A DNA stretch of 64,000 nt from Streptomyces sp. ISL-12 (GTDB taxonomy: Bacteria; Actinomycetota; Actinomycetes; Streptomycetales; Streptomycetaceae), in assembly GCF_018614415.1 (NCBI RefSeq), contig NZ_JAGGOO010000110.1:62001-126000 (forward strand), given 5' to 3'. Below are positions 28,046-64,000 of this stretch, piece after piece. The notes beneath the pieces are model-generated. The model did no database searches. It worked only from the letters and a program-made list of their open reading frames with translations, and had not been told where the DNA came from. A program made the translations under genes and the position numbers. Every line of letters starts with the position of its first letter. The first letter of the stretch is position 1.

Positions 28046-28069
28046 CCGGTGCAACGAAGGAGTTCCCCC

Positions 28070-30216: not shown

Positions 30217-30222
30217 CACACC

Positions 30223-31155: not shown

Positions 31156-31189
31156 TCCTCCCCCGCCTACCGGAAAGCAGAGGCGCGCC

Positions 31190-32913: not shown

Positions 32914-32914
32914 T

Positions 32915-32942: not shown

Positions 32943-32949
32943 CGCGGCC

Positions 32950-44700: not shown

Positions 44701-47700
44701 CGAGGCGACGAACCGTTCCGCGGTCAGGCCGGGGCGGGACAGGTAGCCTCGCGCCAGGCCCGTGCCCTCGATGTAGATCTCGCCGACCACTCCCGGCGGG
44801 ACCGGGCTCAGCCGCTCGTCGAGCACATGGATCCGGGCACCCGCGAGTGCGTGGCCGAGGGGCAGCCGGCTGCCGGCGGTGTACGGCGCGCCGACCTCGA
44901 ACTGCGCGGCGCACAGGGTGGTCTCGGTCGGTCCGTAGAGCTGCCGGAAGACCACGCCGGGGCAGGCGCGCAGCAGGTTCTCGACGGCGGACGGCGGGAC
45001 CACGTCGCCGCCGGCCAGGACCTCGGACACCCCGGCCAGGCATTCCGGCGCCTCCTCGGCGACCACCCGGAACAGGCCGGCGGTGAAGTGGACGGAGGTG
45101 ATCCGCTCGGTTTCGATCAGCCGCGCCAGTTCGTCGGTGCCGAGCCTGCCGCCGGGTGCGAGGACCACACAGCCGCCCTGGGTGAGCGGGACCCACAGTT
45201 CGTAGTCGGAGATGTCGAACGCGTGGGGAGCGTGCATCAGCACCCGCTCGTGCCGGCCGCTGTGCCAGCCGGGGTCCTCGACGAGGGCGAGCAGCCCGGA
45301 GTGCGGGACCGCGACGCCCTTCGGCGTGCCCGTCGATCCCGAGGTGTACATCACGTAGGCCAGCTGCCCGGGGTCCGTGACGCCGGGCGGCGGGACGGCC
45401 GCCGGACCGGCCGGCGGGTCCGACGGCGTGACGAGCAGGACCTGCCGGTCCCCGGCCACGTCGTGGACGTCGCCGGTACCGTCGGCCAGCACCAGGCCGA
45501 CGCCCGCGTCGTCCAGGATCCACCGGAGCCTCTCCGCCGGATACGCCTCGTGCAGCGGGACGTGGACGCATCCCGCCTTGAGCACGCCGAGGACGGCGAC
45601 GACGAGTTCCGGCGAGCGTTCCAGGAACACCCCGACCGGGGTCTCGGGCCCCGCCCCGGCAGCGGCGAGACGCTCCGCGACCGCGTCGGACCGCACGTCG
45701 AGTTCCTGGTACGTCAGGGCGCGCGGCCCCGCCTTGACGGCGACGGCCCGCGGCCGGGACCGCACCTGGTCGCGGATGAGGTCCAGTACGGTGCGCCGCG
45801 GCGGAGCGGGGAAGGCGCCGCGGGCGGCCAGCCACTCGCGTTCGGAGTCCGACAGGACGTCGAGGGCGCCGATCCTGGCCTGCGGGTCGGCGGCGAACGC
45901 TTCCAGCACGGCCACGAGCCGGTCCGCGATCTCCGCGACGGTCCCGGTCTCGAACAGGTCGACGGCGAACTCGACCGCTCCCCCGATGCCCAGCGGCCGG
46001 CCGTCCTCCCCGAACCGCTCGCGCAGGTTGAACGCGAGGTCGAACTTGGCGGACACCGTGGCGTCCGGCTCGACCGTGGCGTCCAGGCCGGGGAAGTCGA
46101 GCGTGGCCGCCGCGTTGTTCTGCAGGGCCAGGAAGACCTGGAAGAGCGGGTGCCGGGCCAGCGAGCGTACCGGGTTGAGCACCTCCACCAGCCGCTCGAA
46201 GGGCACGTCCTGGTTAGCGTAGGCGGCCAGGTCCGTCTCCCGGACGCGGGCCAGCAGTTCGGCGACGGTCGGGTCGCCGGAGGTGTCCGTCCGCAGCACG
46301 AGGGTGTTGACGAAGAAGCCGATGAGGTCGTCCAGAGCGGCGTCGGTGCGCCCGGCGACCGGTGTGCCCAGCGGGATGTCGCAGCCGCCGCCCAGCCGGG
46401 TGATCAGGGAGGCGACGGCGGCCTGGAGGACCATGAACAGGCTGACCCCGTGTTCCCTGGCGAGGTGGAGCAGGCGCCCGTGCAGCTGAGCCGGGACCCG
46501 TACCTCGACCGTGCCGGCGGTGGAGCCCAGCACGGCCGGCCGGGTGCGGTCGGCCGGCAGGTCCAGGTCCAGCGGCACACCGGCCAGTGCCCGCTTCCAG
46601 AACTCGGTCTGCCGGGCTATGGGGCTGTCGGGGTCGTCCTCCGTCCCGAGCAGGTCCCGCTGCCACAGTGTGTAGTCGCTGTACTGCACGGGCAGCGGAC
46701 GCCAGTCGGGCGCCCGTCCGTCTACGCGCGCCGCGTACGCCGTCGCGAGGTCACGTGACAGGGGGAGCATCGACCAGCCGTCGCCCGCGATGTGGTGCAT
46801 GACCAGCAGCAGCAGGTGCTCGGCCGGAGCGGCTTCGAAGACGTGGACCCGGATCGGCAGGTCGGCGGCCAGGTCGAAGCCGCGTCCGGCGATCTCGGCC
46901 GCAGCGGTGCGCGACGCCTCCTCGCCGAGGGGGAGGAACTCGACCAGCGGCCGGGCGTCCGCCGCTTCGACGATCCGCTGCGCCGGGATCCCGTCGGCCT
47001 CGACGAACAGGGTGCGCAGCGACTCGTGGCGCGACACGAGGTCGTGGACCGCGGTGGTCAGCGCGTCACGGTCGAGGTCGCCGCGGACCCGGATCACCCG
47101 GGAGACGTTGTAGGCGGAGGCTCCGGGGTCCATCTCCTGCAGGAACCACATGCGCTGCTGCGCGTAGGACAGCGGGACGGCCGCGGGACGGTCCTGGGCG
47201 CGGCGCAGGGCCGTGCGTGCGCGGCCGGCGCCGGCCAGCCGCGCGGCCAGTCCCTCGGGCGTGGCCGTCTCGAAGACGGCACGGATCGGCAGCTCGACGC
47301 CGAAGGCCACGCGGACCCGGCCGACCAGGCGGGTGGCCAGCAGGGAGTGCCCGCCGAGGCGGAAGAAGTCGTCGTCGGCGCCGACCCGTTCGAGGCCGAG
47401 CAGCTCCGCGAAGACCGCGCACAGGATCTCCTCCTGCGGCGTGCGGGGGGCACGTCCGGTGCGCCCGCCGGCCAGGTCCGGTGCCGGCAGTGCCGCGCGG
47501 TCCAGCTTCCCGCTGAAGGTCAGCGGGATCGCGTCCAGGCTCACCACGGCCGTGGGGACCATGTACTCGGGCAGCACCTCGGCCGCCCCGCGCCGGATGC
47601 CGGCGGGGTCCGGTGCCGCGCCGGCCGCGGGCACGACGTACCCGACGATGCCGGGTCCGCCCGGCAGGTCGTCGCGCAGCACCGCGACGGCCGCCAGTAC

Positions 47701-50367
47701 CCCGGGCTGGCCGGCCAGGACCGCCTGGATCTCGCCGAGTTCGATCCGGAACCCGCGCAGCTTCACCTGGGCGTCGGCACGTCCGACGTACTGGAGCTGC
47801 CCGTCCGGCCGCCAGTACGCCACGTCTCCTGTCCGGTACATCCGCTCTCCGGGCGGGCCGAACGGGTCGGCGACGAAGCGCTCCGAGGTCAGCCCGGCGC
47901 GTCCCAGGTAGCCGCGGGCGAGGAGGGGGCCCGACACGTACATCTCGCCGGGGACGCCGACGGGTGCCGGGCGCAGCCATGCGTCGAGGACGTAGATGCC
48001 GGTGTTCCAGTACGGCCGGCCGATCGGGACGGGGCCGCCGGGGAGCTCGGTGCCCGCGGGGATCCGGTGTTCCGCGCAGTTGACCGTGACCTCGGTGGGA
48101 CCGTAGGCGTTGATCAGCTCCACCTCGGGGTGGGCCGAGCGCCACGCGCTGACGGCCTCGCCGTACAGCGCCTCGCCGCCGAGCATGAGGGTGTCCGAGG
48201 GCGAGAAGCCGGCCGGGAGTTCGTCGAGGATCGGCAGATGGCTGGGGGTCGCCTTCAGGAAGCGCGGTGGGGAGGGAACTACCTGGGGCTGGGTCCCGGC
48301 GAGGTCGAGCACCCCGACGCGGACGCTGCCGCCGCCCACCAGCGGCGGGTAGATCGATGTGACGGTGGCGTCGAAGGAGATCGACGCGTGCAGCAGGGTG
48401 CTGCCGGTCGCGCTGGGTCTGCCCGCGGCCGGGTAGGCAGCGCCGGCCCAGGAGGCGTAGGCGGCCAGCGCCGCGTGCGGGACGCCGACGCCCTTGGGGC
48501 GTCCGGTCGACCCCGAGGTGTAGATGACGTAGGCCAGCTGCTGCGGTCGCGGCGACGCGGGCGGTGGCGTCGGCTCGTCGGCGGCGAGCCGGCGGGCGGT
48601 GCCGGGGTCGTCGAGCAGCAGCACCGGCGGGCAGGACCGCGGCAGCCGGCCGGCGAGGGAGGCGACGGTGACCACGACGGCCGGGCGGGAGTCGTCGAGC
48701 AGGTAGGCGATGCGCTCGGTGGGGTAGTCGGCGTCGACCGGGACATAGGCCGCGCCGGACTTCAGGGCTGCCAGCGGTGCCGCGACCAGGTCGGCCGTCC
48801 TGGGCAGCATCACCGCCACGAGCCGCTCCGGTCCGGCACCCCGCTCCGCCAGGAGCGCGGCGAGCCGGTCGGTCCGGGCGTCCAGTCGGGCGTATGTCAG
48901 CGTCTCGGGGCCGCAGATCACCGCCGCGGCGTCGGGGGTGGCCGCCGCCTGGGCGCGGAAGCGGTCGACGACGCCTTCGAAGGGGACGTCGCGCGGGGCG
49001 CCGTTCCACTGGCGCAGCACCAGGTCGCGTTCGGCGGCGTCGGTCAGCTCGGCCCTGGAGAGGGCCAGGTCCGGGCGGAGCGCGAACGTGGTGAGCAGCC
49101 GGGTGAACCGGGTCGCGATCGCCTCGGCCGTGGCACGGTCGAACAGGTCCGACCGGAAGTCCAGACGGCAGCGCAGTCCGGCGGGCTCGCCCGCGTCGGT
49201 GAACCGCTCATGGATGTGCACCGCCAGATCGAAGCGTGCCACCGGGAGCTGCCGCTGCTCGGCCGTGACCGCCAGGCCCGGCAGCTTCGGCGTCACCGCC
49301 GTGTTGTTCTGCACGGCCAGCAGCACCTGGAACAGCGGGTGACGGGACGTCGAACGCCGCGGGTTGATCGCCTCCACCAGCCGCTCGAACGGCACGTCCT
49401 GGTGGCTCAGGGCCCCCAGGGCGAACCGGCGGACCCGGCCGACGAGGTCGGCGAAGGCCGGGTCGCCGGAGGTGTCGGCGCGCACCACCAGGGTGTTCAC
49501 GAAGAACCCGACCAGGTCTTCCAGCGCTTCCTCGGTGCGTCCGGCGACCGGGACACCGATCGGGATGTCGTCTCCGGCGCCGAGCCGGGTCAGCAGAGCG
49601 CTGAGGCCCGCGTGGAGCACCATGAACATGCTGGCCCCGCGCTCGCGGGCCAGCGCGGCGAGACCGCGGTGGGTGTCCGCGTCGACGTCGAACGGCACGA
49701 AGCCGCCCTCGCGCGCCGACCGGGTACCGCGCGGACGGTCGAACGGCAGCGCCAGTTGGTCCGGCAGGCCGGCCAGCGCGGTCCGCCAGTGGGTGAGCTG
49801 CCGGGACAGGCGGCTCGACGGGACGTCCTCGTCGCTGAGGAGATCCCGTTGCCAGAGCGCGTAGTCGGCGTACTGCACCGGCAGCGGCTCCCAGTCAGGC
49901 GCCGATCCGTTCCTGCGGGCGGTGTAGGCGGTGGCGATGTCGCGGGCCAGGGGGGCCATCGACCAGCCGTCGCCCGCGATGTGATGGACGACCAGCAGCA
50001 GCACGTGCTCGGCGGGGCCGAGTGCGAACAGGGTGGCTCGCAGGGGGATCTCCCGCGCGAGGTCGAACGGCCGCGCCGCGGCCTCGTCGAGGAGCCGTTC
50101 CAGTTCCCCGGCGCCGGCCGGCACGACCGGCAGCCCGATGTCCTGCGCCGGTTCCAGGATCACCTGCTCCGGCTCGCCGTCGTGGTCGTGGAAGACCGTG
50201 CGCAGCGCCTCGTGCCGCTCGACCAGGTCGGTCAGGGCCGCCCGCAGCGCGGCGCGGTCCAGCTCACCGCTCAGCCGCACCTGGAGCGGGAGGTGGTAGG
50301 CGACGCCGCCCTCCCCCATCTGTTCCAGGAACCACAGCCGGCGCTGCGCGAACGAGAGCGGGATCAT
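35800..50367 (-). CDS. Four-module NRPS, C-A-T / C-A-MT-T / C-A-T / C-A-T-TE (AryD-like)
   Basis: A 4855-aa megasynthase. Condensation HHxxxDG motifs lie near residues 128, 1191, 2650 and 3718; carrier serines (LGGHSL) near 1005, 2461, 3529 and 4565; a SAM methyltransferase ([11 protein letters not shown]) near 2042, inserted in the second A domain; a thioesterase ([11 protein letters not shown]) near 4700. My reading of the ten-residue pockets: module 1 DATKMGAVNK (unassigned, Asp/Asn-like K278), module 2 DIYHLGLLCK (Hpg), module 3 DVFSVAIVYK (perhaps Ala), module 4 DASTAAAVCK (Tyr). No epimerisation domain is present. Architecture and the Hpg(N-Me)-X-Tyr order match AryD of arylomycin biosynthesis. 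In module 4 the A3 motif reads STGRPNG, Asn replacing the usual Lys. The start at ATG 50367 overlaps the preceding stop region through AGGAG. Confidence 0.95.
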
Positions 50368-50376: not shown

Positions 50377-53300
50377 CTAGGAGACTCGTCGGGCGCGGGG
50401 CACCAGGGCGGGGCGGGGCGGTTCGGCGGCGGCCGCCGCGAGCCCGGCGGCCACATGCTCGTCAAACAGCCGTGCGATCGTCTGGGCGTCGAACAGCGCG
50501 CGCAGGTCGAGGTCGATGCCGAGCGCGGAACGCACGCGGCTGATCAGCTTGACCGCGGTCAGCGAGTTGGCGCCGAGGGCGAAGAAGTCGTCGTCGATGC
50601 CGACCTCCGGCAAGCCCAGCAGGTCGGCGGCGATGGCGCAGAAGGTCGCCTCGGCCTCGGTCCGCGGGCCGCGGCCGGCCGCCTCGGGGGCGGGACCGGG
50701 GTCCGGCAGGGCGCGGCGGTCTAGCTTGCCGTTGGGGTTGAGCGGCAGCCGGTCGAGGACGACGCCCGCCGAGGGGACCATGTAGGGCGGGAGTTCGGCG
50801 CCGAGGCGGGCCGCGAGTTCGGGCCACTGCGGGGTGGCCCCCTCGTCGGGGACCACGTAGGCGACCAGCTGCTTGACGTCGGCGGATTCGCCGCGGGCCA
50901 GGACGACCGCGTGGCGGACGCCGGGCAGCCGGCCGAGCACGGTCTGCACCTCGCCGGGCTCCACTCTCAGACCCCTGACCTTGACCTGGTCGTCGGCCCG
51001 CCCGAGGTGTTCCACCGCACCGTCGCGGGTCCACCGGCCCAGGTCGCCGGTGCGGTACATCCTGGCGCCGGGGCCGCCGAAAGGGCTGGCGACGAAGCGG
51101 TCGGCGGTCAGGTCCGGGCGTCCCAGGTAGCCGCGGGCCAGGCCGACGCCCTCGACATAGATCTCGCCGACCGCGCCGACCGGCACCGGCCGCAGCCGGT
51201 CGTCGAGAAGGTGGACCCTGGTGTTCGGCAGGGGTCTGCCGACCGGCGGCGCGCCCGGCTCCCCGCCGTCGGCGCCGCCGTCGGAGAACCACGCGGTCGC
51301 GTAGACGGTGACCTCGGTCGGGCCGTAGAGGTTCGCGATCCGGCAGCCCGGCACGGCCTGCCGGACCCGGGCCACCAGGGACTCGGTCAGCGCCTCACCC
51401 GTGAAGCCGATCGTCTTGGCGTCGAGGCCGACACCGGGCCCGCTCAGCAGGGTCGACATCACGGACGGCACCGAGCCGGCGTATCCGCCGGACAGCACCC
51501 GCCCGCCGAGGGCCAGCGGTCCCGACAGCAGTTCGACGCAGCCGCCGGCCAGCAGCGGCGCGAAGATCTCCAGCGTCGATGGGTCGAAGCTGAGCGAGGT
51601 CGCCGCGAGCGTGTGTGCCAGGGTGTCGGCGCCGAGGGCCTCGACGGCCCAGCCGATGAAGTTCACCATGCTGCGCCGCGAGACGACGACGCCCTTGGGG
51701 CGTCCGGTGGAGCCCGAGGTGAAGATGGCGTAGGCCGGGTTGTCCGGACGCAGGGGCGTGGTCCGGTCGGCGTCGGTGAGGCGTCCGGCGGGGCGGGCCG
51801 CGAGGTCCCGCGCCACCTCGGGATCGTCCAGGAGCAGCCGAGTGGTCTTCGGCGCCGCCCCCAGCACGGACTCGGTGTCGCGGGTGGCGATGGTCAGCAC
51901 GGGGTCCGACAGTTCGAGCATGTACGCGATCCGCTCGGCCGGATAGGTCACGTCCAGCGGTACGTACGCCGCGCCGCTCTTGAGGACTGCGAGCAGGGTG
52001 ACGAGCATGTCGGGGCTGCGCGGCAGGGCCAGGGCCACGAACCGCTCGGGGCCCGCCCCCGCCTCGACGAGCCTCCGGGCCAGCCGGTTCGCGCGGGCGT
52101 CGAGGTCGGCGTAGCCGAGTGACTCGCCGTCGTGGAGCACCGCGACGGCCCGCGGAGCGCGGTCGGCCTGTGCCTCGACGAGTTCCGAGATGTCGGCTTC
52201 CGGGACCGCCCGCTCGGGCCCGTACCAGCCGCCGAGCAGGTTCGTACGCTCGTCCGGCAGCAGGAAGTCCAGTGCGCCGACCGGTGTGTCGGGGTCGGCC
52301 TCGGAGAGTTCCGTCAGCAGCACCGCCAGGCGGTCGCGGTGGGCTTCGAGCACCGGCGTGTCGTACAGCCGCGGGTTCGCGTCGAGGCACACGCGCAGCC
52401 CCGGGACGCTGGCACCGCTGTAGACCGCGAGGTTGAAGTCCTCGACGGGACCGTTCGACAGGATGTTGACGCTCGAGCTGGCCTGCCCGAACGTCAGGTC
52501 GTCCTGGAAGCGCAGGACGTCGACCGAAGGCCCGTACAGCCGCTGTCCGCCGGCCAGCTTCAGGTCGCGCCGCAGGTCCTCGAAGCGGTAGCGCTGGTGC
52601 GCCAGCGCCTGTTTGATCTCGTCGGCGGTGCGTCGCAGGAAGGCACCCACGCCCAGGTCCAGGTCGACGTCCAGCCGCAGCGGCACCACGTTCGCCGCCA
52701 TGCCGACCGTGCGCTTCTGGACGGCCCCGAAACGGGCGGCGACCGGCAGGCCGATGACGACCTCCCGGGTCCCGCGCATCCGGCCCAGGTACACCGCCAT
52801 CGCCGCGCAGATCGCCACCGAGTGGGTGGTGCGCACGCCGCGCGTCAGCTTCTGCAGCCTGTCCAGGACCTCGGCACCGATCTCCGCGGTCACGCGCAGG
52901 AAGGTGTGCGCGGGCAACGCCGTGGTGTCCGCGAGTCCCTGCACCTCGCCGGCTCCGGCCATCCGCTCCGTCCAGAAGGCGCGGTCGGCCGCGAACCGGT
53001 CCGAGGCGCGGTATTCGGCGTCCGCGTCCAGCAGGCTCGCGGCCGGGCCGAGGGCGGTGTCCTGGACCGGCTCCCCGGCGGCCATGGCGTTGTAGATGTC
53101 CGCGACCCGGCCGGCGACCAGCGAGGAGGAGTAGCCGTCGCAGACGATGTGGTGGGCGCGGTTGAACCAGAACCAGCGGTCCTCCGCGGCGCGGAACAGC
53201 AGGCAGGAGTAGAGGGGGTCCTGCTCCAGGTCGACGGGCCGGGCCATCTCCTCCCGCATCACGGCCTCGGCCGCGGCCCGCGGATCGGTCTCGCCACTGA

Positions 53301-53562
53301 CATCCACCAGAGGCATCGACCACTCGCGCTCCGCCGGGACCTGCGTCGGGCCGTCCGCCGTCTCCACGAAGCGGACGTGGACGGCCTCGCTCTCCTCGAC
53401 CGCCCGCGACACGGCCGCCCGCAGCAGGTCCGGGTCGACCGGGCCGGTGATGTCGAGGTACTGGCAGCCGGAGAAGATCGGGTTCGCCCGGTCCAGCCGC
53501 TGGGCGAACCACATGCCGGCCTGGGCCCCTGACAGGGGAAGCGGAGTCGTCGTGCGGGTCAT
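50377..53562 (-). CDS. Single-module NRPS (C-A-T) with EntF/DhbF-like condensation domain
   Basis: A 1061-aa protein from ATG 53562. The C domain (residues 1-430; HHIVCDG near 136; PLSGAQAGMWFAQRLDRANP at the N-terminus) is of the EntF/DhbF type that accepts a chain or acyl group from a separate carrier protein, not the usual LCL form of the next protein. The A domain (A3 motif near 613) has pocket DPLGGTLVYK, which matches no code I know. The carrier motif is DDFFALGANSLTAVKL near 990. There is no E or MT domain. The upstream donor (acyl ligase, carrier) is not in the window, so chain initiation is probably encoded beyond the right edge. Stop TAG overlaps the ribosome site of the four-module NRPS 9 bp downstream. 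Confidence 0.93.
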   Translation of the reverse strand: MTRTTTPLPLSGAQAGMWFAQRLDRANPIFSGCQYLDITGPVDPDLLRAAVSRAVEESEAVHVRFVETADGPTQVPAEREWSMPLVDVSGETDPRAAAEAVMREEMARPVDLEQDPLYSCLLFRAAEDRWFWFNRAHHIVCDGYSSSLVAGRVADIYNAMAAGEPVQDTALGPAASLLDADAEYRASDRFAADRAFWTERMAGAGEVQGLADTTALPAHTFLRVTAEIGAEVLDRLQKLTRGVRTTHSVAICAAMAVYLGRMRGTREVVIGLPVAARFGAVQKRTVGMAANVVPLRLDVDLDLGVGAFLRRTADEIKQALAHQRYRFEDLRRDLKLAGGQRLYGPSVDVLRFQDDLTFGQASSSVNILSNGPVEDFNLAVYSGASVPGLRVCLDANPRLYDTPVLEAHRDRLAVLLTELSEADPDTPVGALDFLLPDERTNLLGGWYGPERAVPEADISELVEAQADRAPRAVAVLHDGESLGYADLDARANRLARRLVEAGAGPERFVALALPRSPDMLVTLLAVLKSGAAYVPLDVTYPAERIAYMLELSDPVLTIATRDTESVLGAAPKTTRLLLDDPEVARDLAARPAGRLTDADRTTPLRPDNPAYAIFTSGSTGRPKGVVVSRRSMVNFIGWAVEALGADTLAHTLAATSLSFDPSTLEIFAPLLAGGCVELLSGPLALGGRVLSGGYAGSVPSVMSTLLSGPGVGLDAKTIGFTGEALTESLVARVRQAVPGCRIANLYGPTEVTVYATAWFSDGGADGGEPGAPPVGRPLPNTRVHLLDDRLRPVPVGAVGEIYVEGVGLARGYLGRPDLTADRFVASPFGGPGARMYRTGDLGRWTRDGAVEHLGRADDQVKVRGLRVEPGEVQTVLGRLPGVRHAVVLARGESADVKQLVAYVVPDEGATPQWPELAARLGAELPPYMVPSAGVVLDRLPLNPNGKLDRRALPDPGPAPEAAGRGPRTEAEATFCAIAADLLGLPEVGIDDDFFALGANSLTAVKLISRVRSALGIDLDLRALFDAQTIARLFDEHVAAGLAAAAAEPPRPALVPRARRVS

Positions 53563-53616: not shown

Positions 53617-54783
53617 TCAGGCGACGAGGGAGGCCAGGCGGTCGACGACCTCGGCGGGGCTGGGCATAACCCGTATCTCTTCCTGGACCTCGTGGGCCGC
53701 GGTCCGGAAGGCCGGCTCGTCGAGCACCCGGGCCAGGTTCTGCCGCACCTCGGCCGCGCTGATCCGGTCCGGGGGCACCAGGGCCGCGACCCCACGGGCG
53801 GCCAGCACCCGGGCGTTGGCGGGCTGGTCGGCGGTCTGCGGCAGCACGACCTGCGGCACGCCGAGGGCGAGGCTCGTCATGGAGGTGCCGGCCCCGGCGT
53901 GGTGGACGACGGCCGAGCAGGTCGGCAGCAGCGCACCGAGCGGCATCCAGCCGACGACGCGCACGGCCTCCGGCAGCTCGCCGATCCCCTCCAGGTCGCT
54001 CTCCCCCATCGCCACGACGACCTCGACGCCCAGACCGGCGAGTTCGACGAGGATCTCCCTCACCACCGCGACATAGAGCTGCTTGAGCTCCGAACCGGCC
54101 GGGAGGTTGCCGAGAACGCTGCCCATCGTGACGCAGACCCGCGGCCTGCCGGGGGCGGCCAGCACCCAGTCCGGGAGGACCCGGCCCTCGTTGTAGGGCA
54201 CGTAGCGCAGCGGCCACTGGGTACGGGTGTCCCCTCCGCCCAGGCCGGCCGGCCTGATGTCCAGCACGGCGGCCGGTTCCCTCCAGGGCTCGCCGATGCC
54301 CAGGCGTTCACGGGTGGGCAGCAGGTACTCCGCGACGGCTCTCCGGTACGTCACCGCCTGCTCGTCGGGGCCGGCCCAGGCGAGCCGGACGCTCTGCTCG
54401 ACGTACGGGATGCCCAGCCGGGTCGCGACCAGTTCGCCGGCTCCCTGTTCGAGGGTGGACACCACCAGGTCCGGCCGGAAGGCCTCGGCGGCCCGCAGCA
54501 GGCCGTCGGCCATCGCCTCGCCGAACATGCCCATGCCGCTGCGCCGGGGCCGCTGCCCGTCGGGGGCGGCCTGGACGGCCTGACTCGCCGCCAGGAAGTC
54601 GGCGTGCACATCGGTGCCCGGGGCCGCGTCCACGGTCCAGAAACCACCGGCGGCCACCGACCGTGACGTGCCGCCGGTGTTCATCACGAGGACCTCGTGT
54701 CCCGCGGCCCGCAGGGCCCAGGCCAGGGGCACGGTGGGCAGGAACAGCCCGGCTCCGGGCGCGGCCGTCGACAGGACGCGCAT
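53617..54783 (-). CDS. GT-B glycosyltransferase (natural-product type, EryCIII/MGT-like)
   Basis: A 388-aa protein. The N-terminal PGAGLFLPTVPLAWALRAAG is the acceptor domain start of GT1 enzymes; the donor-binding block is VVHHAGAGTSMTSLALGVPQ followed by VLPQTADQPANARVLAARG, normal for enzymes using NDP-sugars on antibiotic aglycones. The ATG at 54783 shares its A with the stop of the P450 (TGATG), so the two are translationally coupled. No NDP-deoxysugar genes occur in the window, so the sugar either comes from primary metabolism or is encoded farther right. Glycosylated arylomycins with a deoxymannose are known, which fits. Confidence 0.9.
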   Translation of the reverse strand: MRVLSTAAPGAGLFLPTVPLAWALRAAGHEVLVMNTGGTSRSVAAGGFWTVDAAPGTDVHADFLAASQAVQAAPDGQRPRRSGMGMFGEAMADGLLRAAEAFRPDLVVSTLEQGAGELVATRLGIPYVEQSVRLAWAGPDEQAVTYRRAVAEYLLPTRERLGIGEPWREPAAVLDIRPAGLGGGDTRTQWPLRYVPYNEGRVLPDWVLAAPGRPRVCVTMGSVLGNLPAGSELKQLYVAVVREILVELAGLGVEVVVAMGESDLEGIGELPEAVRVVGWMPLGALLPTCSAVVHHAGAGTSMTSLALGVPQVVLPQTADQPANARVLAARGVAALVPPDRISAAEVRQNLARVLDEPAFRTAAHEVQEEIRVMPSPAEVVDRLASLVA

Positions 54784-56063: not shown

Positions 56064-56531
56064 TCAGGTGCGCGGGGCGGGACCGCTCTCCGCGGATCGG
56101 GCGACGACCCTGTCGCCGCGTACCAGGCCCGATCCGGCCGGGGCCCCGGCCGGATCGGCGCCCACGGCGTCGATCCGGTTACCGGCGTCGACGAAGACGA
56201 CGCGCGGCTGGAACGAGCGCGCCATCTCCTCGGCCACGGCCGAGTAGGAGATGACGATCACGAGGTCCCCGGGGGCCACGAGGCGGGCCGCCGCGCCGTT
56301 GACCCCGATCACGCCGCTGTCCCGATCCCCGGTGATGACGTAGGTGGAGAACCGGTTGCCGTTGTCGATGTCGACGACGTCGACCTTCTCCCCGGGCAGC
56401 AGGTCCGCCGCCTCCATCAGCGCGGCGTCGATCGTGATCGAGCCGACGTAGTGCAGGTCCGACTGCGTGACCGTGGCTCGGTGGATCTTGGACTTCAGCA
56501 TGTCCCTGAAGGCGACTGGCGTCGTAGCCAT
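56064..56531 (-). CDS. panD: Aspartate 1-decarboxylase (pyruvoyl-dependent)
   Basis: 155 aa from ATG 56531 with GGGGGAGG upstream. PanD self-cleaves between Gly and Ser to make a pyruvoyl group: the site is [10 protein letters not shown]. The substrate Lys ([11 protein letters not shown]), Arg (NRFSTYVI) and Asn ([10 protein letters not shown]) are present, so it should be active. The C-terminus is about 25 residues longer than E. coli PanD. It is the first gene of the leftward biosynthetic operon, unusual for a CoA-pathway enzyme. It probably supplies beta-alanine to the product, but no A domain in the window has a beta-alanine pocket. Decarboxylation of cysteate to taurine is a speculative alternative given the gene at 61827. 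Confidence 0.92.
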
Positions 56532-56703
56532 CCGGACGGCCTCCCCCGTGAGTTGGTCTGGATCGCCTGGGCACGCTACGGGCGGTGGATCACCGCGGGC
56601 AGCACCGATCAGGTACACCGATCGGGCACCCCGCTCGGCGCAGTGCCCGGCCGCCCCCGCTTGGGATAGTCGAGTGATCGTTCTGGCGTAGAGACGGGGA
56701 GCA
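56532..56703. promoter_or_regulatory. Divergent promoter region of the NRPS cluster, with direct repeat
   Basis: A 172-bp gap separates panD (leftward) and the hydroxymandelate synthase (rightward). It contains two direct copies of CACCGATC at 56603-56610 and 56616-56623, 13 bp apart, and a GGGGAG ribosome site before ATG 56704. I see no secure -35/-10. As the only divergent start in the cluster it is the likely control point; no pathway regulator is encoded in the window. Confidence 0.6.
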
Positions 56704-57798
56704 ATGAGCACTCACGTGACCGCGGGCGAGGACCTGGATCTCGCGTATGTCGAGTTGTACGTGGCCGACCTGGAAGCCGAGCGCGACGTCTTCGTGGAGC
56801 TGTACGACTTCGAGGTCGTCGGCACGGCCGGCTCGTCCGCACAGGGCTTCCGGAGCGTGGCACTGACGCAGGGCGGCTCCATGCTCGTGCTCACCCAGGG
56901 GCTGGCCGACGAGCACCCCGCCTCCTTGTACGTCCTCTCCCACGGTGACGGCGTGGCCGACATCGCGATGCGCACCGCCGACGTACCCGGCGTCTTCGCG
57001 GCCGCGGTGGCGGCGGGCGCGACGCCGGTGGCGGAGCCGCGTGCCGGCGCGGACGGCCTGTTCACCGCGACGATCCGGATGCTCGGTGATGTCACCCACA
57101 CCCTGGTGCAGACGTCCCCCACCGGGCAGGGCGGTCCGCCGGCAGGGTTCACGCCCGCGGCACAGGGACAGGCACAGGCACGGACGCCTCGGCGCCCCGG
57201 GGACGCTCTGCGCCTCGACGTGGTGGACCACTTCGCGGTCTGCGTGCCGGCCGGGACCCTGGACCGGACGATCTCCCTGTACGAGTCCGCCCTCGGCTTC
57301 CGGCAGACCTTCGAGGAACGGATCACCGTCGGTGCCCAGGCGATGGAGTCCAAGGTGGTGCAGAGCGCCTCGTCCACCGTGACCTTCACGATCCTCGAAC
57401 CGGACCCGGAGCTGGAGGCCGGGCAGATCGACGAGTTCCTGAAGAACCACGGCGGCGCGGGCATCCAGCACGTGGCCTTCGCCACCGACGACATAGCCCG
57501 GACCGTCGCTTCGATGCAGCGCCGCGGCGTCGAGTTCCTCTCGACCCCGGGCGCGTACTACGACCTGCTGCCGGACCGGATCCTGCCCGGCACCCACGGC
57601 GTCGACGAGCTGCGGAAGCTGAACATCCTGGTCGACGAGGACCAGGGCGGGGAACTGTTCCAGATCTTCACCCGCTCGAGCCATCCCCGCCGCACCCTGT
57701 TCTACGAGGTGATCGAGCGGGCCGGCGCCCGGCTCTTCGGCTCCAACAACATCAAGGCCCTGTACGAGGCGGTCGAACACGGGCGCTCGGGGAACTAG
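56704..57798 (+). CDS. hmaS: 4-hydroxymandelate synthase (HmaS)
   Basis: A 364-aa Fe(II) dioxygenase of the HPPD/HmaS family with two VOC domains. The metal ligands are His in [12 protein letters not shown], His in [13 protein letters not shown] and Glu in [11 protein letters not shown]. The C-terminal [14 protein letters not shown] has Ile where HPPD has Phe (GNFKALFE), as in HmaS. It converts 4-hydroxyphenylpyruvate to 4-hydroxymandelate, step 1 of Hpg synthesis, while HPPD would make homogentisate. The two next genes complete the pathway, which settles the assignment. First gene of the rightward operon. Confidence 0.93.
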
Positions 57799-57803: not shown

Positions 57804-58898
57804 ATGGCACCGACAACGGACGCGGGCAGCGTCGCGGACCTCGAACCCGCGGCCCGGGAGCGGCTGGCCGGGGACATCTGGGACTTCATCGCCGGCGGCA
57901 GCGGCGACGAGACCACCCTGGCCGCGAACCGCGCCGCGCTGGACCGCATCACACTCGTCCCGCGTGTGCTGCGCGACCTGTCGGAGCGTGATACGCGGTG
58001 CGAGCTGTTCGGGTTCCGCGCGTCGGTACCGGCCGCCGTCGCACCCCTCGCCTACCACCGGCTCGTCCACCCGGACGGTGAGGTGGCCACCGCCCGTGCC
58101 GCCAGGCGCGCCGGTGTCCCCCTGACCGTGTCCACCATGAGCAGCACGTCGCTGGAGCAGGTCACCGACGCCGGGGGAACGGTCTGGTTCCAGCTCTACC
58201 CGCTGCGGGACCGGCAGCGGACCCGCGCGCTCGTCCGCCGGGCGGAGGACGCCCGGTGCGCGGCGCTGATGGTCACGGTCGACGTGCCGTGGATGGCGCG
58301 GCGGCCCCGGGACATCCGCAACAGCTTCAGCCTCCCGCCCCATGTCAGGGCCCCGCTGCTGGGGGACGAGGACGGGGCGCCGGACGCCCGCAGCAGGGTT
58401 CCGCACGCCTCGGCGGTGGCCGAGCACACCCGGGCCGCCTTCGCCCCGTTCACCTGGGCAGACCTGGCCGAGCTGCGCCGGGCGACATCGCTCCCGTTGA
58501 TCGTGAAGGGTGTTCTCGCGCCCGACGACGCCGTACGGGCCGTCGAGGCCGGCGCGGACGGCGTCGTCGTCTCCAACCACGGTGGCCGCCAGCTCGACGG
58601 CGCGATCCCCACCGCCGACGCGCTGGGCGCGGTGTGCGAGGCCGTCGGCGGGCGCGGGACGGTCCTGTTCGACAGCGGAGTGCGTTCCGGGACCGACGTC
58701 CTGCGTGCCCTGGCCTGCGGCGCCGACGCCGTACTGGTCGGCCGCCCGGTGCTGTGGGGCCTGGCCGTCGGGGGCGAGGCCGGTGTGCACCGCGTACTGA
58801 CGTTGCTGCGGCGGGAGTTCACCGACGCCCTGGGCCTCGCGGGATGTCCCGACCCGGCCGCGGCCCGGGAACTGGCGATATGGAGGCGACCGGCGTGA
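57804..58898 (+). CDS. hmo: 4-hydroxymandelate oxidase (Hmo), FMN-dependent
   Basis: A 364-aa FMN alpha-hydroxy-acid oxidase. The FMN/active-site segments are LIVKGVLAPDDAVRAVEAG, VVVSNHGGRQLDGAIPTAD (catalytic His) and FDSGVRSGTDVLRALACGAD. It oxidises 4-hydroxymandelate to 4-hydroxyphenylglyoxylate, the second step of Hpg formation. It begins 5 bp after the hmaS stop and its own stop lies inside the start region of the aminotransferase gene, so the three are coupled. Lactate oxidase-like homologues differ in context. Confidence 0.92.
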   Translation: MAPTTDAGSVADLEPAARERLAGDIWDFIAGGSGDETTLAANRAALDRITLVPRVLRDLSERDTRCELFGFRASVPAAVAPLAYHRLVHPDGEVATARAARRAGVPLTVSTMSSTSLEQVTDAGGTVWFQLYPLRDRQRTRALVRRAEDARCAALMVTVDVPWMARRPRDIRNSFSLPPHVRAPLLGDEDGAPDARSRVPHASAVAEHTRAAFAPFTWADLAELRRATSLPLIVKGVLAPDDAVRAVEAGADGVVVSNHGGRQLDGAIPTADALGAVCEAVGGRGTVLFDSGVRSGTDVLRALACGADAVLVGRPVLWGLAVGGEAGVHRVLTLLRREFTDALGLAGCPDPAAARELAIWRRPA

Positions 58899-60220
58899 TG
58901 GCGACAGTCGCCGTGGCGGATCTGCACGCGTCCTTGGCCGACCCGGCCCTGGACTCGATGAACTTCCTGAACGAGATCGCGAACGACTACCCGGACGCCG
59001 TCTCGTTCGCCCCGGGCCGGCCCTACGAGGGGTTCTTCGACACCGCGCTCATCCACGACTACCTGCACCGTTTCGAGCAACACCTGCTCGTGGAGCGGGG
59101 GTTCGCCCCCGAGCAGGTGTGCCGGGTCCTGTTCCAGTACGGACGTACCAAGGGCGTCATCGACGACCTGGTCACCAGGCACCTGGAGATCGACGAGGGG
59201 ATCCACGCCGAGCCGGAGTCCGTCGTCGTCACCGTGGGGTGCCAGGAGGCGATGTTCCTCGTCCTGCGGGCGCTGCGGGCCGACGACCGGGACGTCCTGC
59301 TCACGGTGACCCCGGCCTACGTGGGCATCGTCGGCGCCGCGCGACTGGCCGACATGCCGGTGGTCGGCGTGGACGGCGGGCCGGCCGGGATCGACCTGCC
59401 CGCGCTGGCCGGGACGGTACGGCGGCTGAGGGCCGAGGGCCGCCGTCCGCGCGCCTGCTACGTCGTGGCCGACCACTCCAACCCCTCCGGTGTCAGCCTC
59501 TCCCCCGCCGACCGCCGGGCGCTGCTCGCCCTGGCCGCCGCCGAGGACTTCCTGATCCTGGAAGACAATCCGTACGGGCTCTTCTCGGCCGACGACGAGC
59601 GGCCGCCGACGCTCAAGGCGATCGACTCGGGGCGGCGCGTCGTCTATCTCGGTTCCTTCGCCAAGACGGGCATGCCCGGGGCCCGCGTGGGCTACGTGGT
59701 CGCCGATCAGCCGGTGGCCGGTGGCGGCCTGCTCGCCGACCAGCTCGCCAAGCTCAAGAGCATGCTGACCGTCAACACCTCTCCGATCGCCCAGGCGGTG
59801 ATCGCGGGCAAGCTCCTGGCCCACGGCTGCAGTCTGGTGAAGGCCAACCAGCCGGAGATCGCCGTCTACCGGCGCAACCTGACGCGTCTTCTGGAAGGCC
59901 TGGCCCGCCGGTTCCCGGCCGACGGCCCCTCGGGCATCGGCTGGAACCGCCCGCGCGGCGGCTTCTTCCTCGTGCTGTCGGTGCCGTTCGAGGCGGACGA
60001 CTCCCTGCTGGAGCGGTCCGCCCGTGAGTTCGGCGTCCTGTGGACGCCCATGCGGCACTTCACCACGGGTGCGGCCGCCCGGTGTGCGATCCGCCTGTCG
60101 TTCAGCGTCCTCACCCCCGAACAGATCGACGAGGGACTGGACCGCTTCGCCGCCCTGGCGGCCTCGACCACCCGAAGAGGTGACCTACGACCTCGCGACA
60201 CGGACACTCCCCTTCGGTGA
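58898..60220 (+). CDS. hpgT: 4-hydroxyphenylglycine aminotransferase (HpgT)
   Basis: A 440-aa fold-type I PLP aminotransferase. The PLP Lys is in YLGSFAKTGMPGARVGYVVA, the Asn/Tyr region in ILEDNPYGLFSADDE and the substrate Arg in CAIRLSFSVLTPEQIDEGLD. It transfers an amino group (usually from Tyr) to 4-hydroxyphenylglyoxylate, giving L-Hpg. The start is ATG 58898 or GTG 58895, which has GGAGG at a spacing of 8; the hmo stop overlaps this. Together with HmaS and Hmo it supplies the Hpg loaded by module 2 of the large NRPS. Prephenate dehydrogenase is not encoded in the window, so hydroxyphenylpyruvate comes from primary metabolism. Confidence 0.92.
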   Translation: MATVAVADLHASLADPALDSMNFLNEIANDYPDAVSFAPGRPYEGFFDTALIHDYLHRFEQHLLVERGFAPEQVCRVLFQYGRTKGVIDDLVTRHLEIDEGIHAEPESVVVTVGCQEAMFLVLRALRADDRDVLLTVTPAYVGIVGAARLADMPVVGVDGGPAGIDLPALAGTVRRLRAEGRRPRACYVVADHSNPSGVSLSPADRRALLALAAAEDFLILEDNPYGLFSADDERPPTLKAIDSGRRVVYLGSFAKTGMPGARVGYVVADQPVAGGGLLADQLAKLKSMLTVNTSPIAQAVIAGKLLAHGCSLVKANQPEIAVYRRNLTRLLEGLARRFPADGPSGIGWNRPRGGFFLVLSVPFEADDSLLERSAREFGVLWTPMRHFTTGAAARCAIRLSFSVLTPEQIDEGLDRFAALAASTTRRGDLRPRDTDTPLR

Positions 60221-60279
60221 GCCGGACAATGGCTCGACATGCGACGCGTGTCGCAGGCGAAGAGGGAGGAATCAAGCAG

Positions 60280-61167
60280 GTGTTGACTTTGAAGGCAGTG
60301 AGCAAACGCTACCGGCGCGGCCGTCCGGTGCTCGTCGACGTCGACTTCCGGACGTCGCCGGGTGCCGTCCAGGCCGTCACCGGCGGCAACGGCTCGGGCA
60401 AGTCGACGCTGCTGCGGATCCTGGCGGGCGTCTCACGGCCGACCTCCGGCACCCGCTCCGGTGATCCGGGGGTCATCGGCTACGTACCGGACCGCTTTCC
60501 GGCGGGCACCCGGCTGTCGGCCCGTTCCTACCTCGCGCACATGGGACGCGTCAAAGGGCTGCCGAGCAGGCGTGCCGTGGCCCGGGGTACCGAACTGCTC
60601 TCCCGCTTCGATCTGGTGGGCGGATTCGAGACGCCGATCCGTGACCTGTCCAAGGGCAACGCGCAGAAGGTCGCCGTGGCGCAGGCCCTGCTGGTGCCGC
60701 CGCGGTTGCTGATCCTCGACGAGCCGTGGTCGGGCCTGGACGCCTCGACGCACGGCGTGCTGGCATCGGTCATCACGGAGGTCGCCTCCGGCGGCGGGAC
60801 CGTGGTCTTCACCGACCACCGGGAGGCCGTGACCCGGTCCGTGGCGACCGAGGTCTACCGCATCGAGGCGGGGCGGCTCGGCGAGGCGTCGGCCGTGGCG
60901 CCGGACACGGCGGATCCTCGGGCCTCGGTGTCGGAGGTCGTACTGCGCGCGCCGGGCCCCTGGCCCGCCGCGCTCGTCGACGCCCTGACGAGGGCGGAGG
61001 GCGTGCGGTCGGTGACCCCCGAAGGGGAGCACGGTGTCCGGGTCCGGGTGCCGCGCGGCCACTGCGACACGCTGCTGCTCACGGCGCTCCACGCCGGCTG
61101 GTCCGTCGACGCGCTCCGGCACGACGTCGTCGTCCCCGCCCCGGCGGACGGGCGGGTGACCCGATGA
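60280..61167 (+). CDS. ABC transporter ATP-binding protein
   Basis: A 295-aa ATPase when started at GTG 60280 (VLTLKAVSKRY), which has GGGAGGA 9 bp upstream; GTG 60217, overlapping the hpgT stop, and ATG 60229 are longer alternatives. Walker A is GGNGSGKSTLL, the signature LSKGNAQKVA, Walker B LLILDEPWSGLD and the switch His in VVFTDHREA. A 70-aa C-terminal region follows. It pairs with the six-helix permease encoded immediately downstream (4-bp overlap). The pair may export the peptide or give self-protection. No regulatory site is visible. Confidence 0.92.
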   Translation: MLTLKAVSKRYRRGRPVLVDVDFRTSPGAVQAVTGGNGSGKSTLLRILAGVSRPTSGTRSGDPGVIGYVPDRFPAGTRLSARSYLAHMGRVKGLPSRRAVARGTELLSRFDLVGGFETPIRDLSKGNAQKVAVAQALLVPPRLLILDEPWSGLDASTHGVLASVITEVASGGGTVVFTDHREAVTRSVATEVYRIEAGRLGEASAVAPDTADPRASVSEVVLRAPGPWPAALVDALTRAEGVRSVTPEGEHGVRVRVPRGHCDTLLLTALHAGWSVDALRHDVVVPAPADGRVTR

Positions 61168-61820
61168 CCGCCCTGTACCGCTACAACATGGCCACCGTGC
61201 TGCACTCCCAGCGTTATGTGCCGCCCCTGGTGTTCTTCCTCGGCCTGCTCGCCATTCTCACCAGCAGCGACAACGGCCCGCTGCTGGAGGTGTACCAGGC
61301 CGCCGCCGGGTCCGTGCTGGCCTGCGCGACCTGGATCGCCGCCGCGGTGGTCAACGTGGAGGAGCCCGTCGGACGGGCCATGGTCGTGGTGAACGCGCGC
61401 CGTTCGCGCGACGTGCTCGTCGCCGCCGTCGCCGCCTCGGCCACCTTCTGCGTCGGCATGACCTTGATCGGCCTGGTCTATCCGGTCGTCTCCGGCTCGC
61501 ACACCGTCACCTGGCAGGCGGTGGCGCTCGGCGCCGCCGCACAGCTGATCTGTGCCTGCGTCGGCATCGGGCTGGGACTGCTGTGCTCACGGCTGGTGAT
61601 CGGCCGGCCGGGCTTCTCGGTGGTGGCCGGGCTCGCGCTGGTGCTCGCGGTGATCCTCGCCAAACCGGTGCCGCCGGTCTATCCGATGCTGCGCTCCATG
61701 TCCGGCGACCGCAGCCCGGCCGACCTGGTGCTGCCGTTCGCCGGCTACGGCCTGGCCGGCCTTGCCGTACTGGCCGCGGCCACGGCAGTGACGCAGTACA
61801 TCGCCACCCGAGGGGACTGA
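61164..61820 (+). CDS. ABC transporter membrane permease
   Basis: A 218-aa protein from ATG 61164, overlapping the ATPase stop (ATGA). Six hydrophobic segments at roughly residues 17-35, 43-65, 83-110, 115-140, 148-166 and 190-213. It is short, as in two-component antibiotic exporter and self-resistance permeases (ABC-2-like). Without a known substrate it is best called the permease partner of the ATPase at 60280. It is coupled to both neighbours, with 6 bp before the cysteate synthase-like gene. Confidence 0.85.
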   Translation: MTALYRYNMATVLHSQRYVPPLVFFLGLLAILTSSDNGPLLEVYQAAAGSVLACATWIAAAVVNVEEPVGRAMVVVNARRSRDVLVAAVAASATFCVGMTLIGLVYPVVSGSHTVTWQAVALGAAAQLICACVGIGLGLLCSRLVIGRPGFSVVAGLALVLAVILAKPVPPVYPMLRSMSGDRSPADLVLPFAGYGLAGLAVLAAATAVTQYIATRGD

Positions 61821-61826: not shown

Positions 61827-63086
61827 ATGAGGGCGTATCGCCTGGTGTGTTGCGCGTGCGGCACCGAGTACGACGACGACGGGCTGCGGCTCGCGTGCGA
61901 TGCGCCCCATGAGCCCTCGCTGCTGCGCACCGTGTACCAGGCGTCGGGTCTGCACGCGAGGCATCCGGCTCCGGCCGGCAGCGTCTTCCGCTTCGCCTGG
62001 CTGCCGGTGGTCCGCGCGATACCCGGCTCGCCGGGGCCGGTCGCCTGCCGGGCCGAGGAACTCGGCCGTGCTCTCGGGCTGTCGGACCTGTGGATCTCCT
62101 TCAGCGGCCACTGGCCCGAGCGCGGCGCGCTGCTGCCGACCGGCACGTTCAAGGACCTGGAGGCCGGCGTGGTCCTGGGCCGCCTCCCGGACGATCCGCC
62201 GGTGCTGGTGCTCGCCTCCGCGGGCAACACCGCCGCCGCCTTCGCCGCCGCGTGCGTCCGGGAGGGGGCGAGGTGCCTGATCGTCGTTCCCTCGTACGCC
62301 GTGGGGGCGGTGTCCGCCGCGGCCGGACGGGCCGACGGCGTGGGGCTGATCGTGGTCGAGGGCGGAACGTACGACGACGCGATCGCCCTGGCCGAGGCGG
62401 TGGGTGCCCTGGACGGTTTCCGGCCGGAGGGCGGGATACGCAACGTCGGGCGGCGTGACGGCCTGGCGACCTGCCTGTTGTCGGTCTTCGAGGCGTCGGG
62501 ACGGCTGCCCCGCCACTACGTCCAGGCGGTGGGCAGCGGCGCGGGAGCGGTGGCCGCGCACGAGGCGGCCGGACGCCTGCGGAAGCACGGCTGCCCCGAC
62601 CCGCTGCCCCGCCTCCTCCTGTGCCAGAACGCCCCTTACGCACCTCTGCGCGACGCCTGGCACGGCCGGCGGACCCTGGCACCCGCCGGACCCGTCGTCG
62701 CCCCGGAGCTGACGAACGGCCGGCCTCCTTTCGCCGTGCGCGGCGGCGTACGGGAGGCGCTGGTCGAGAGTGGCGGAACGGTGGTCGTCGCGGGGGGCGA
62801 CGAGGCCCGGCGCGCCATGGCCCTGTTCGAGCGGACCGAGGGCGTCGACATCGAGCCCGCGGCCGGGGTGGCGCTGGCGGGTCTGGCCAAGGCCGTCCGC
62901 GCCGGGCGCATCGGCACGGACGACATGGTGCTGCTCAACATCACCGGTGGCGGCCGGCGCCGCCTGTGCGCCGGGTCCGGGACCGTGCCGGTGCGGCCGG
63001 ACGTCTCGGTCGACGTCGTCGAGACCCGCGACCCCGCCCTGCTCGAGATCGCGGCGAAGAGCGTCGCCGACGCGTTCCTGGCGTGA
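61827..63086 (+). CDS. Cysteate synthase-like PLP enzyme (threonine synthase family)
   Basis: A 419-aa fold-type II PLP enzyme. The N-terminal CCACGTEYDDDG zinc-like Cys pair, the segment DLWISFSGHWPERGALLP, the PLP-Lys motif GTFKDLEAG, VLASAGNTAAAFAA, GGIRNVGRRDGLAT and QAVGSGAGAVAAHEAA follow the order seen in methanogen cysteate synthase (TIGR03844-type), a paralogue of threonine synthase. That enzyme makes L-cysteate from O-phosphoserine and sulfite. Threonine synthase is the main alternative, but the WPERGA and GGIRNV-type motifs favour the cysteate branch. A cysteate supply enzyme in an NRPS cluster suggests a sulfonated residue. It starts 6 bp after the permease stop. Confidence 0.75.
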   Translation: MRAYRLVCCACGTEYDDDGLRLACDAPHEPSLLRTVYQASGLHARHPAPAGSVFRFAWLPVVRAIPGSPGPVACRAEELGRALGLSDLWISFSGHWPERGALLPTGTFKDLEAGVVLGRLPDDPPVLVLASAGNTAAAFAAACVREGARCLIVVPSYAVGAVSAAAGRADGVGLIVVEGGTYDDAIALAEAVGALDGFRPEGGIRNVGRRDGLATCLLSVFEASGRLPRHYVQAVGSGAGAVAAHEAAGRLRKHGCPDPLPRLLLCQNAPYAPLRDAWHGRRTLAPAGPVVAPELTNGRPPFAVRGGVREALVESGGTVVVAGGDEARRAMALFERTEGVDIEPAAGVALAGLAKAVRAGRIGTDDMVLLNITGGGRRRLCAGSGTVPVRPDVSVDVVETRDPALLEIAAKSVADAFLA

Positions 63087-63107: not shown

Positions 63108-64000
63108 GTGAGAATCGCTGTTGCCGGAGCCTCCGGCGCGCTCGGTTCGGCCGTCGTCGGGGACCTGAGGACGGCCGGCCACGACGTGTCCCGGCTGGTA
63201 CGGGGCCAGGCCCACGCCGCGGACGAGATCGGCTGGGACCCTTCCTACGGCCGCATCGCCCCCGGGACCCTCTACGGCTTCGACGCGGTCGTGAATCTCT
63301 ACAGCACCGGGCTGGCCGGCAAACGCTGGAACGCGGCGCGGAAGCGGAAGATCCACGACAGCCGTGTGGTGGCCGCTCGCACCCTGGCCTCGGCCGTCGC
63401 CGAATCGGGTGTGCCGGTGTTCCTGAGCGGATCGGAGACCGCCTACTACGGGGACACCGGAACCGTCGAGGTCGACGAGAGCGCCGGGAGCGGAACGGGT
63501 TTCCACGCGGAGCTGTGCCGCGACTGGGAGGCCGCCGCGAGCAAGGCCGAGGGCTCCGGCACCCGCGTCGTGCTGCTGCGTCTGGGTACGGTGCTCGCGG
63601 CGGACAGCGGCATCATCAAGGTCATGACACCGGCGTTCCGGGCGTTCCTCGGCTTCCGTTTCGGGCGGGGCGACCACTGTCTGTCGTGGGTGGCCGAGGA
63701 CGACGCGGTCGCCGCGGTGCGGTTCGTCCTGGAGAACGAGTCGGTCGCGGGGCCGGTCAACGTCACGGCGCCCGGGGCCGCCGTTCAGCGCGAGTTCGCC
63801 GCCGCGCTGGGCCGGGCCCTCCGCCGCCCGGTGCCCTGGAGCCTGCCGCGCCCGGTGCTGAGGTCCGCGCTCGGTGAGTACGCGGACGGCTTCTTCACCG
63901 GCCGGCGCGCGGTTCCGTCGGTCCTCACCGCCGCGGGGTTCGGCTTCCGCCACCCGGACCTCGATGGCGCGATCGCGGCGCTGTTCAGGGCAGGGACCTG
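63108..64000 (+). CDS. TIGR01777-family epimerase/NAD-dependent protein, 3' truncated by the window
   Basis: The GTG start at 63108 has GGAGGAACT upstream, 21 bp after the cysteate synthase-like stop. About 297 residues are visible and the frame runs off the right edge. The SDR-type fold begins VAGASGALGSAVVGDL; RKRKIHDSRVVAARTLA and FLSGSETAYYGDTG are characteristic of the TIGR01777 (SulA/YfcH-like) proteins, and a DUF1731-like C-terminal part (YADGFFTGRRAVPSVL) is present. The function of this family is not known. Spacing suggests it is part of the rightward biosynthetic operon. Confidence 0.8.
   Translation, partial: MRIAVAGASGALGSAVVGDLRTAGHDVSRLVRGQAHAADEIGWDPSYGRIAPGTLYGFDAVVNLYSTGLAGKRWNAARKRKIHDSRVVAARTLASAVAESGVPVFLSGSETAYYGDTGTVEVDESAGSGTGFHAELCRDWEAAASKAEGSGTRVVLLRLGTVLAADSGIIKVMTPAFRAFLGFRFGRGDHCLSWVAEDDAVAAVRFVLENESVAGPVNVTAPGAAVQREFAAALGRALRRPVPWSLPRPVLRSALGEYADGFFTGRRAVPSVLTAAGFGFRHPDLDGAIAALFRAGT

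Follow-up and report, generated by a model that had tools for sequence, protein, structure and literature searches.

A Probable L-Cysteate-Loading Nonribosomal Peptide Gene Cluster in Streptomyces sp. ISL-12

A nonribosomal peptide gene cluster of Streptomyces sp. ISL-12 encodes a predicted cysteate synthase, and we consider it likely that the cysteate made by this enzyme is loaded by module 1 of the larger synthetase, NRPS2, into the peptide. The stretch of DNA analyzed here, termed the window, covers 64,000 nt of an 8.39-Mb genome assembled in 217 contigs (G000:C14:62001-126000). That the peptide may contain L-cysteate had been suggested in an earlier note on this DNA. It is now the best reading, with good though indirect support, because the family model and the predicted fold identify the enzyme as a cysteate synthase and a pocket with Lys278 and Ala236 accompanies the gene in several cluster types.

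In the proposed pathway, the product of the gene at 61827-63086 would form free L-cysteate from O-phosphoserine and sulfite, a reaction suggested by its sequence family. Module 1 of NRPS2 would then activate L-cysteate and place it second in a peptide of five residues. Within the pocket, Asp235 would hold the amino group and Lys278 would pair with the side-chain acid, and the replacement of Leu by Ala at position 236 would make room for the larger sulfonate. We infer this substrate and this role of residue 236, as well as a product of the order and structure X1 (possibly acylated), L-Cya, N-Me-Hpg, a small residue (perhaps Ala) and Tyr. The thioesterase would release the peptide, which the P450 and the glycosyltransferase probably alter.

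Identity and Distribution of the Cysteate Synthase

The NCBIfam model for cysteate synthase, TIGR03844, matches the product of 61827-63086 with 351.5 bits (E 5.1e-105), above its curated equivalog cut-off of 324.9, whereas the best-scoring threonine synthase family model, with a cut-off of 421, gives 70.2 bits. The top solved relative by sequence is 9k3c, designated 'Cysteate synthase' (E 7.1e-78), and threonine synthases of solved structure follow at E 3.6e-22 or worse. The fold model, built from an alignment of 18 relatives, has a mean pLDDT of 88.1 and a pTM of 0.90. It superimposes on 9k3c, which is CapA2 of Alistipes finegoldii, with TM 0.91/0.89 and 39% identity in the structural alignment; threonine synthases among the fold matches listed stay at or below TM 0.72 when scaled by query length and 0.76 when scaled by target length. 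K109 is unchanged in all 18 aligned sequences and common to 9k3c. Judged by family model and predicted fold, the gene product is a cysteate synthase, and the resemblance pointed out in the earlier note is borne out by the TIGR03844 score and by 9k3c in both sequence and fold.

The accompanying statement that such genes are rare outside coenzyme M pathways does not hold. Among 391 Streptomycetales genomes, 18 carry the gene above the cut-off, and NRPS genes lie within ~20 kb around it at 15 of the 17 panel loci other than the window. Sulfonolipid synthesis in Bacteroidetes also begins with a cysteate synthase (PMC11211663, excerpt). Further relatives, 39-44% identical, occur in Cyanobacteria and spirochaetes (L129, L130, L134, L136, L138; L135, L141, L145, L150). 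At one panel locus (L058 3626-10720, genome G385), NRPS domains run into the cysteate synthase within a single open frame of 2365 residues, which is either a fusion or a sequence error; the frames of the related genome G208 differ.

Organization of the Gene Cluster

The assembly line of the window comprises 1 + 4 modules. Genes are arranged in a leftward group (PanD, P450, glycosyltransferase, NRPS1, NRPS2) and a rightward group that extends from the dioxygenase to the TIGR01777 oxidoreductase (Table 1).

Table 1. Features of the window that belong to or adjoin the predicted cysteate peptide cluster
Feature	Position	Strand	Remarks
NRPS2, four modules C-A-T / C-A-MT-T / C-A-T / C-A-T-TE	35800..50367	-	Pfam; domain order inferred from positions
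NRPS2 module 4 A domain	36787..38208	-	Pocket DASTAAAVC; TE next
NRPS2 module 3 A domain	39901..41388	-	Pocket DVFLVAIVY; by eye residue 278 is Ser, uncertain
NRPS2 module 2 A domain	44401..45789	-	Pocket DIYHLGLLC; then methyltransferase domain, ~43933-44238
NRPS2 module 1 A domain	47488..48972	-	Pocket DATKMGAVN; predicted L-cysteate
NRPS1, one module C-A-T	50377..53562	-	
EryCIII-like glycosyltransferase	53617..54783	-	
Cytochrome P450	54783..56012	-	
Second PanD (aspartate 1-decarboxylase family)	56064..56711	-	PF02261; likely start is an internal ATG near 56531
4-Hydroxyphenylpyruvate dioxygenase family, HmaS-like by context	56704..57798	+	TIGR01263 322.2 bits, cut-off 277
FMN-dependent dehydrogenase, Hmo-like by context	57804..58898	+	PF01070
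Aminotransferase, HpgT-like by eye from translation	58895..60220	+	
ABC transporter ATPase	60217..61167	+	PF00005
Probable membrane subunit of ABC transporter, hydrophobic on inspection	61164..61820	+	No Pfam match; kept in orthologous clusters
Cysteate synthase (predicted PLP enzyme)	61827..63086	+	419 aa, ATG start; TIGR03844, 9k3c, K109
TIGR01777-family oxidoreductase	63108..64000	+	Ends one base beyond the window

We take the pocket of module 2 to be Hpg-type; pockets like it, DIFHLGLLC, recur in related NRPSs. The A domain of module 3 presumably selects a small, Ala-like residue. That of module 4 has a pocket that we take to be Tyr-type, for which related NRPSs show DASTVAAVC. The dioxygenase-family, FMN dehydrogenase and HpgT-like aminotransferase genes presumably constitute the set needed for 4-hydroxyphenylglycine, in agreement with the Hpg-type pocket DIYHLGLLC. 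Two Catenulispora clusters carry copies of the aminotransferase with 79% identity.

The orthologous Catenulispora cluster (L055/L080) displays the same gene order, with a cysteate synthase 66% identical to that of the window and other cluster genes 64-86% identical. Here too, the TIGR01777 gene adjoins the cysteate synthase. Cysteate synthase and NRPS are thus found together in a conserved cluster, from one orthologue of which the synthase has been deleted. The L080 record is that of Catenulispora pinisilvae NH11 and represents the same cluster as L055. Adjoining the NRPS genes in the window is an aromatic-degradation-like gene run (26067-34143) with two FAA hydrolases, a cyclase, an FAD monooxygenase, an amidohydrolase, an extradiol dioxygenase-like gene, an SDR and an MFS gene.

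The Pocket of Module 1

With GrsA numbering placed by way of conserved motifs, the module 1 pocket reads D235 A236 T239 K278 M299 G301 A322 V330 N331. The same motif-based numbering returns the four residues that had been read before, D-A-T-K at 235/236/239/278. The argument then drawn from Lys278 stands in part: an acid-type pocket is present, but Lys278 by itself does not separate Asp, Asn and cysteate, because DLTKVGEVG and DLTKxGAVN are both common. Across the sequences compared, position 236 is the informative position of Lys278 pockets. It is also the only position that separates the window pocket from DLTKxGAVN, a common and presumably Asp-type pocket. We know of no product for the Ala322/Asn331 background of the window pocket, and a literature search for the pocket strings gave no match. 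Module 1 combines Lys278 with a residue other than Leu at 236, as is the case in other cysteate synthase clusters.

Co-occurrence of the Pocket and the Gene

The panel consists of 391 Streptomycetales genomes, the window's own included. A DATK domain is present in 14 of the 18 genomes with a cysteate synthase above the cut-off and in 2 of the 373 others, so that 14 genomes have both, 4 and 2 are discordant and 371 have neither (Fisher p 2e-20, with clusters shared among species and hence non-independent). In one genome (G291), the DATK domain lies on a contig other than that of the cysteate synthase. Among the remaining cysteate synthase genomes, G208 and G385 carry DSTK in addition to DLTKVGEVG, G013 carries DFTKVGHIG ~43 kb from the gene, and G132 has no such Lys278 pocket in the ~80 kb read. 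DATK occurs without a cysteate synthase in G011, discussed below, and in G345, a draft genome with DATKMGHVG on a contig of 7 kb.

A search profile, A2, was made of nine pockets from cysteate synthase loci (eight DATK, one DITK) and gave 85 matches in 65 of the 391 genomes at E<=1e-40; the threshold and make-up of the profile favor near relatives, and the counts cover matches at that threshold. Pockets could be read in 84 of the 85, namely in 83 of 84 fetched loci (L160-L209 and L273-L306, with L292 unreadable) and at G320:7607924. These are 16 DATK, 67 DLTK and 1 DMTK, meaning that Leu236 is found in 67 of the 68 Lys278 pockets other than DATK. Six of the 67 DLTK pockets are from cysteate synthase genomes (two each in G385 and G320, one each in G208 and G032). 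DLTKMGHVG, the Leu236 counterpart of DATKMGHVG, is present in G090, G137, G280, G330, G361 and G371, all without a cysteate synthase, and DLTKxGAVN in many genomes without the gene.

The named loci are the best 80 of 300 matched relatives from a collection of 84,980 species, and several coincide with records of the panel genomes. Together with L272 they make 81 loci, of which 19 show DATK and 2 DITK (L085, L097) by pattern reading; profile reading adds DSTK in L120 and L127, which pattern reading missed. Since DITK accompanies the gene in L085 and L097 and DFTK in G013, Ala236 is, by these readings, not the sole pocket accompanying cysteate synthase. With the profile, an A domain was found within the stretch (<=10 kb on each side) at 36 of the 80 named loci and none at 44, the stretches often being short; 14 of the 36 have no Lys278 pocket within that distance. 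Codes of DATA or DATP in L082, L087, L092 and L094 were rejected as alignment shifts, their sequences carrying Lys278 (partly by eye).

The domain tree of the 83 read pockets and L272 rests on 109-110 columns, and several long branches meet in it. On this tree Ala236 requires 4 changes, or 5 with residue 236 masked, and supported branches force at least 4. The residue thus occupies four separate places, which the tree does not sort into gains and losses: the window clade (G000, G005, G011), G164 with L272, G320, and an HVG group of eleven. In four independent pairs, the gene tracks Ala236 in 2.6 on average (median p 0.25, too few pairs), and 0.0 on average oppose the link (1 pair in 2 of 200 pairings). 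In L272 (Streptomyces sp. NBC_01340), the cysteate synthase adjoins a DATKIGAVN domain on a 1.7-Mb linear plasmid record.

Loss of the Gene in Catenulispora

Two Catenulispora genomes differ at this locus. The cluster of G005, whose cysteate synthase matches that of L080, is whole. G011 has the orthologous cluster with a DATKLGAVN module, and no cysteate synthase above the cut-off was found anywhere in its genome. The two clusters are ~95.5% identical over 11.8 kb and are distinguished by a single large gap of 1266 bp, which removes the cysteate synthase and leaves its last codons (L222, G011:C257 11123-11211 versus L055 15491-16756). The gap shows that the cysteate synthase belonged to the cluster before its loss. 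Unless the draft assembly is wrong there, the aligned sequences make the G011 deletion a natural knock-out and show that one lineage has managed without the enzyme. With one cluster that has the gene and one that lacks it, the role of the sulfonate becomes directly testable.

PanD in the Cluster

The cluster PanD scores 167.8 bits against PF02261 (cut-off 25) and keeps YVGS as in the chromosomal copy; its Gly-Ser we take to be the PanD processing site. It heads the leftward NRPS operon and is conserved in the two Catenulispora clusters, and the genome has another PanD on contig C158. In a tree computed without L243 and without the PanD of L112, a branch of 0.83 (support 100/99) clearly separates the clade of cluster copies from the chromosomal PanDs in the comparison.

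In a study of M. tuberculosis PanD, L-cysteate is listed as a strong inhibitor with a relative rate of 0.40, and a 1946 report cited there had cysteic acid blocking pantothenic acid synthesis (PMC3461031, excerpt). Such inhibition, along with the divergence of the cluster copy, suggests self-resistance, a role to which we give a low probability. Cysteate would act as a PanD antimetabolite, and the diverged cluster PanD would keep beta-alanine and pantothenate flowing, giving self-resistance to the precursor and not to the product, with Ala236 plus Lys278 as a repeatedly evolved cysteate code; as a whole, this scheme is conceivable but doubtful. A rival reading of the cluster PanD is the formation of taurine from cysteate. 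Within the stretches read, PanD was found near the cysteate synthase at 1 of 17 panel loci (L055) and at 2 of 80 named loci (L080, which is the same cluster, and L112). Its restriction to the orthologous clusters and L112 counts against both self-resistance and taurine formation as a rule.

A general partnership of PanD and cysteate synthase was rejected: two copies are present in 4 of the 18 cysteate synthase genomes (G000, G005, G132, G180), G320, also a cysteate synthase genome, has no PanD, and genomes with a second copy turn up here and there across the panel. Use of beta-alanine as a unit by the NRPSs is likewise unsupported, because all five A domains of the cluster carry Asp235. In Saccharothrix tamanrassetensis (L112 9971-12812), the cysteate synthase lies ~1 kb from PanD, beside deoxysugar genes, and no A domain was found within the stretch examined.

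Alternative Explanations

The cluster could also be explained by loading of L-aspartate on module 1, with cysteate serving otherwise, for instance converted by the cluster PanD to taurine that is then attached to the peptide. The window pocket is one position off the presumably Asp-type DLTKxGAVN, G011 retains a DATK module in the absence of the synthase, the cluster includes PanD, and Saccharothrix L112 also has cysteate synthase and PanD close together. We nevertheless regard this as unlikely. Of the 16 panel genomes with this Ala236, 14 also have the cysteate synthase, and the other two are the G011 deletion and the G345 draft. The taurine branch is further disfavored by the scarcity of PanD near the synthase (1/17 panel and 2/80 named loci), by the persistence of PanD in G011 where the synthase is gone, and by the description of cysteate as a PanD inhibitor (PMC3461031, excerpt). 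A literature search on cysteate, taurine and NRPS in Streptomyces returned no match.

Sequence families cannot prove the nucleophile, and the evidence on this point is the family; a relative of cysteate synthase might join another nucleophile to O-phosphoserine and yield a different acidic amino acid. This seems very improbable to us, as the score exceeds the equivalog cut-off, and the motifs RRDG, VGSG, QNAP and NITGGG are common to the enzyme and 9k3c but altered in threonine synthases (by eye). In addition, a cysteate peptide has been published from S. lincolnensis (known from its citation in PMC12858407, excerpt), a species that carries this pair of genes at L106. There is hardly any chance that the gene is a mere neighbor outside the cluster. 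It does lie towards the distal end of the rightward operon, but it starts 6 bases past the stop of the membrane protein gene, in another bacterial family it again sits between the genes for the membrane protein and the TIGR01777 oxidoreductase, and most other panel loci (15/17) have NRPS genes in the surrounding 20 kb. Incorporation of L-cysteate by module 1 thus stays the preferred reading.

Comparison with Known Systems

The comparison with arylomycin made in the earlier note was not established. The last three modules of the arylomycin NRPS specify N-Me-Hpg, a small residue and Tyr, and by its predicted codes the window would do the same. In contrast, arylomycin has Gly where the window has the acid-type pocket, the predicted window product would have one fewer residue, and no close P450 link was seen among the matches listed. 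No arylomycin cluster was recognised among the relatives fetched through the P450 and the methyltransferase module: the nearest non-orthologues of the P450 among the matches listed are at most 47% identical, and the relatives of the methyltransferase module are Hpg-rich NRPSs, which presumably are complestatin-like.

The window enzyme belongs to the same family as the Bacteroidetes CapA2 (9k3c, Alistipes) and adopts the same predicted fold (TM 0.91), but at 39% identity, and in that system cysteate enters a lipid (PMC11211663, excerpt). Cysteate synthases of Methanosarcinales, which serve coenzyme M, were retrieved by the window query with those of related archaea and placed in the same tree. 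There they group with other phyla, away from the actinomycete sequences. This tree was built by a quick method and has branches of length 10 for two outgroup rows, and we disregard its deep order.

Cysteate-containing nonribosomal peptides are already known as a kind, as published examples show. One is stenothricin, an octapeptide with Dhb and cysteic acid, which is like the predicted window product in its cysteate residue and unlike it in length and other residues (PMC10880069, excerpt). Another comes from Streptomyces lincolnensis (Wang et al. 2018, J Org Chem, cited for Cya biosynthetic enzymes in an excerpt of PMC12858407). The window scaffold is absent among the cysteate peptides that the literature search turned up. 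A cysteic acid module is predicted as Asp in PMC12858407 (excerpt), so predictors can read such a Lys278 pocket as Asp. A cysteate synthase beside a Lys278 pocket with a residue other than Leu236 would offer a usable rule for finding sulfonate-bearing peptides, and, if true, an Ala236 plus Lys278 cysteate code could locate them in genomes.

The published S. lincolnensis cluster is assumed here to be locus L106. Like the window, this locus pairs a cysteate synthase with a DATK module, DATKMGHVG, ~4.6 kb behind the gene. This module follows one with DAYWWGGTF, whereas DATKMGAVN of the window precedes an N-methylating Hpg-type module. In contrast to L106, the window also has Hpg genes, a P450, a glycosyltransferase and PanD, and would therefore add a predicted Hpg/Tyr-type peptide to the small group of cysteate peptides.
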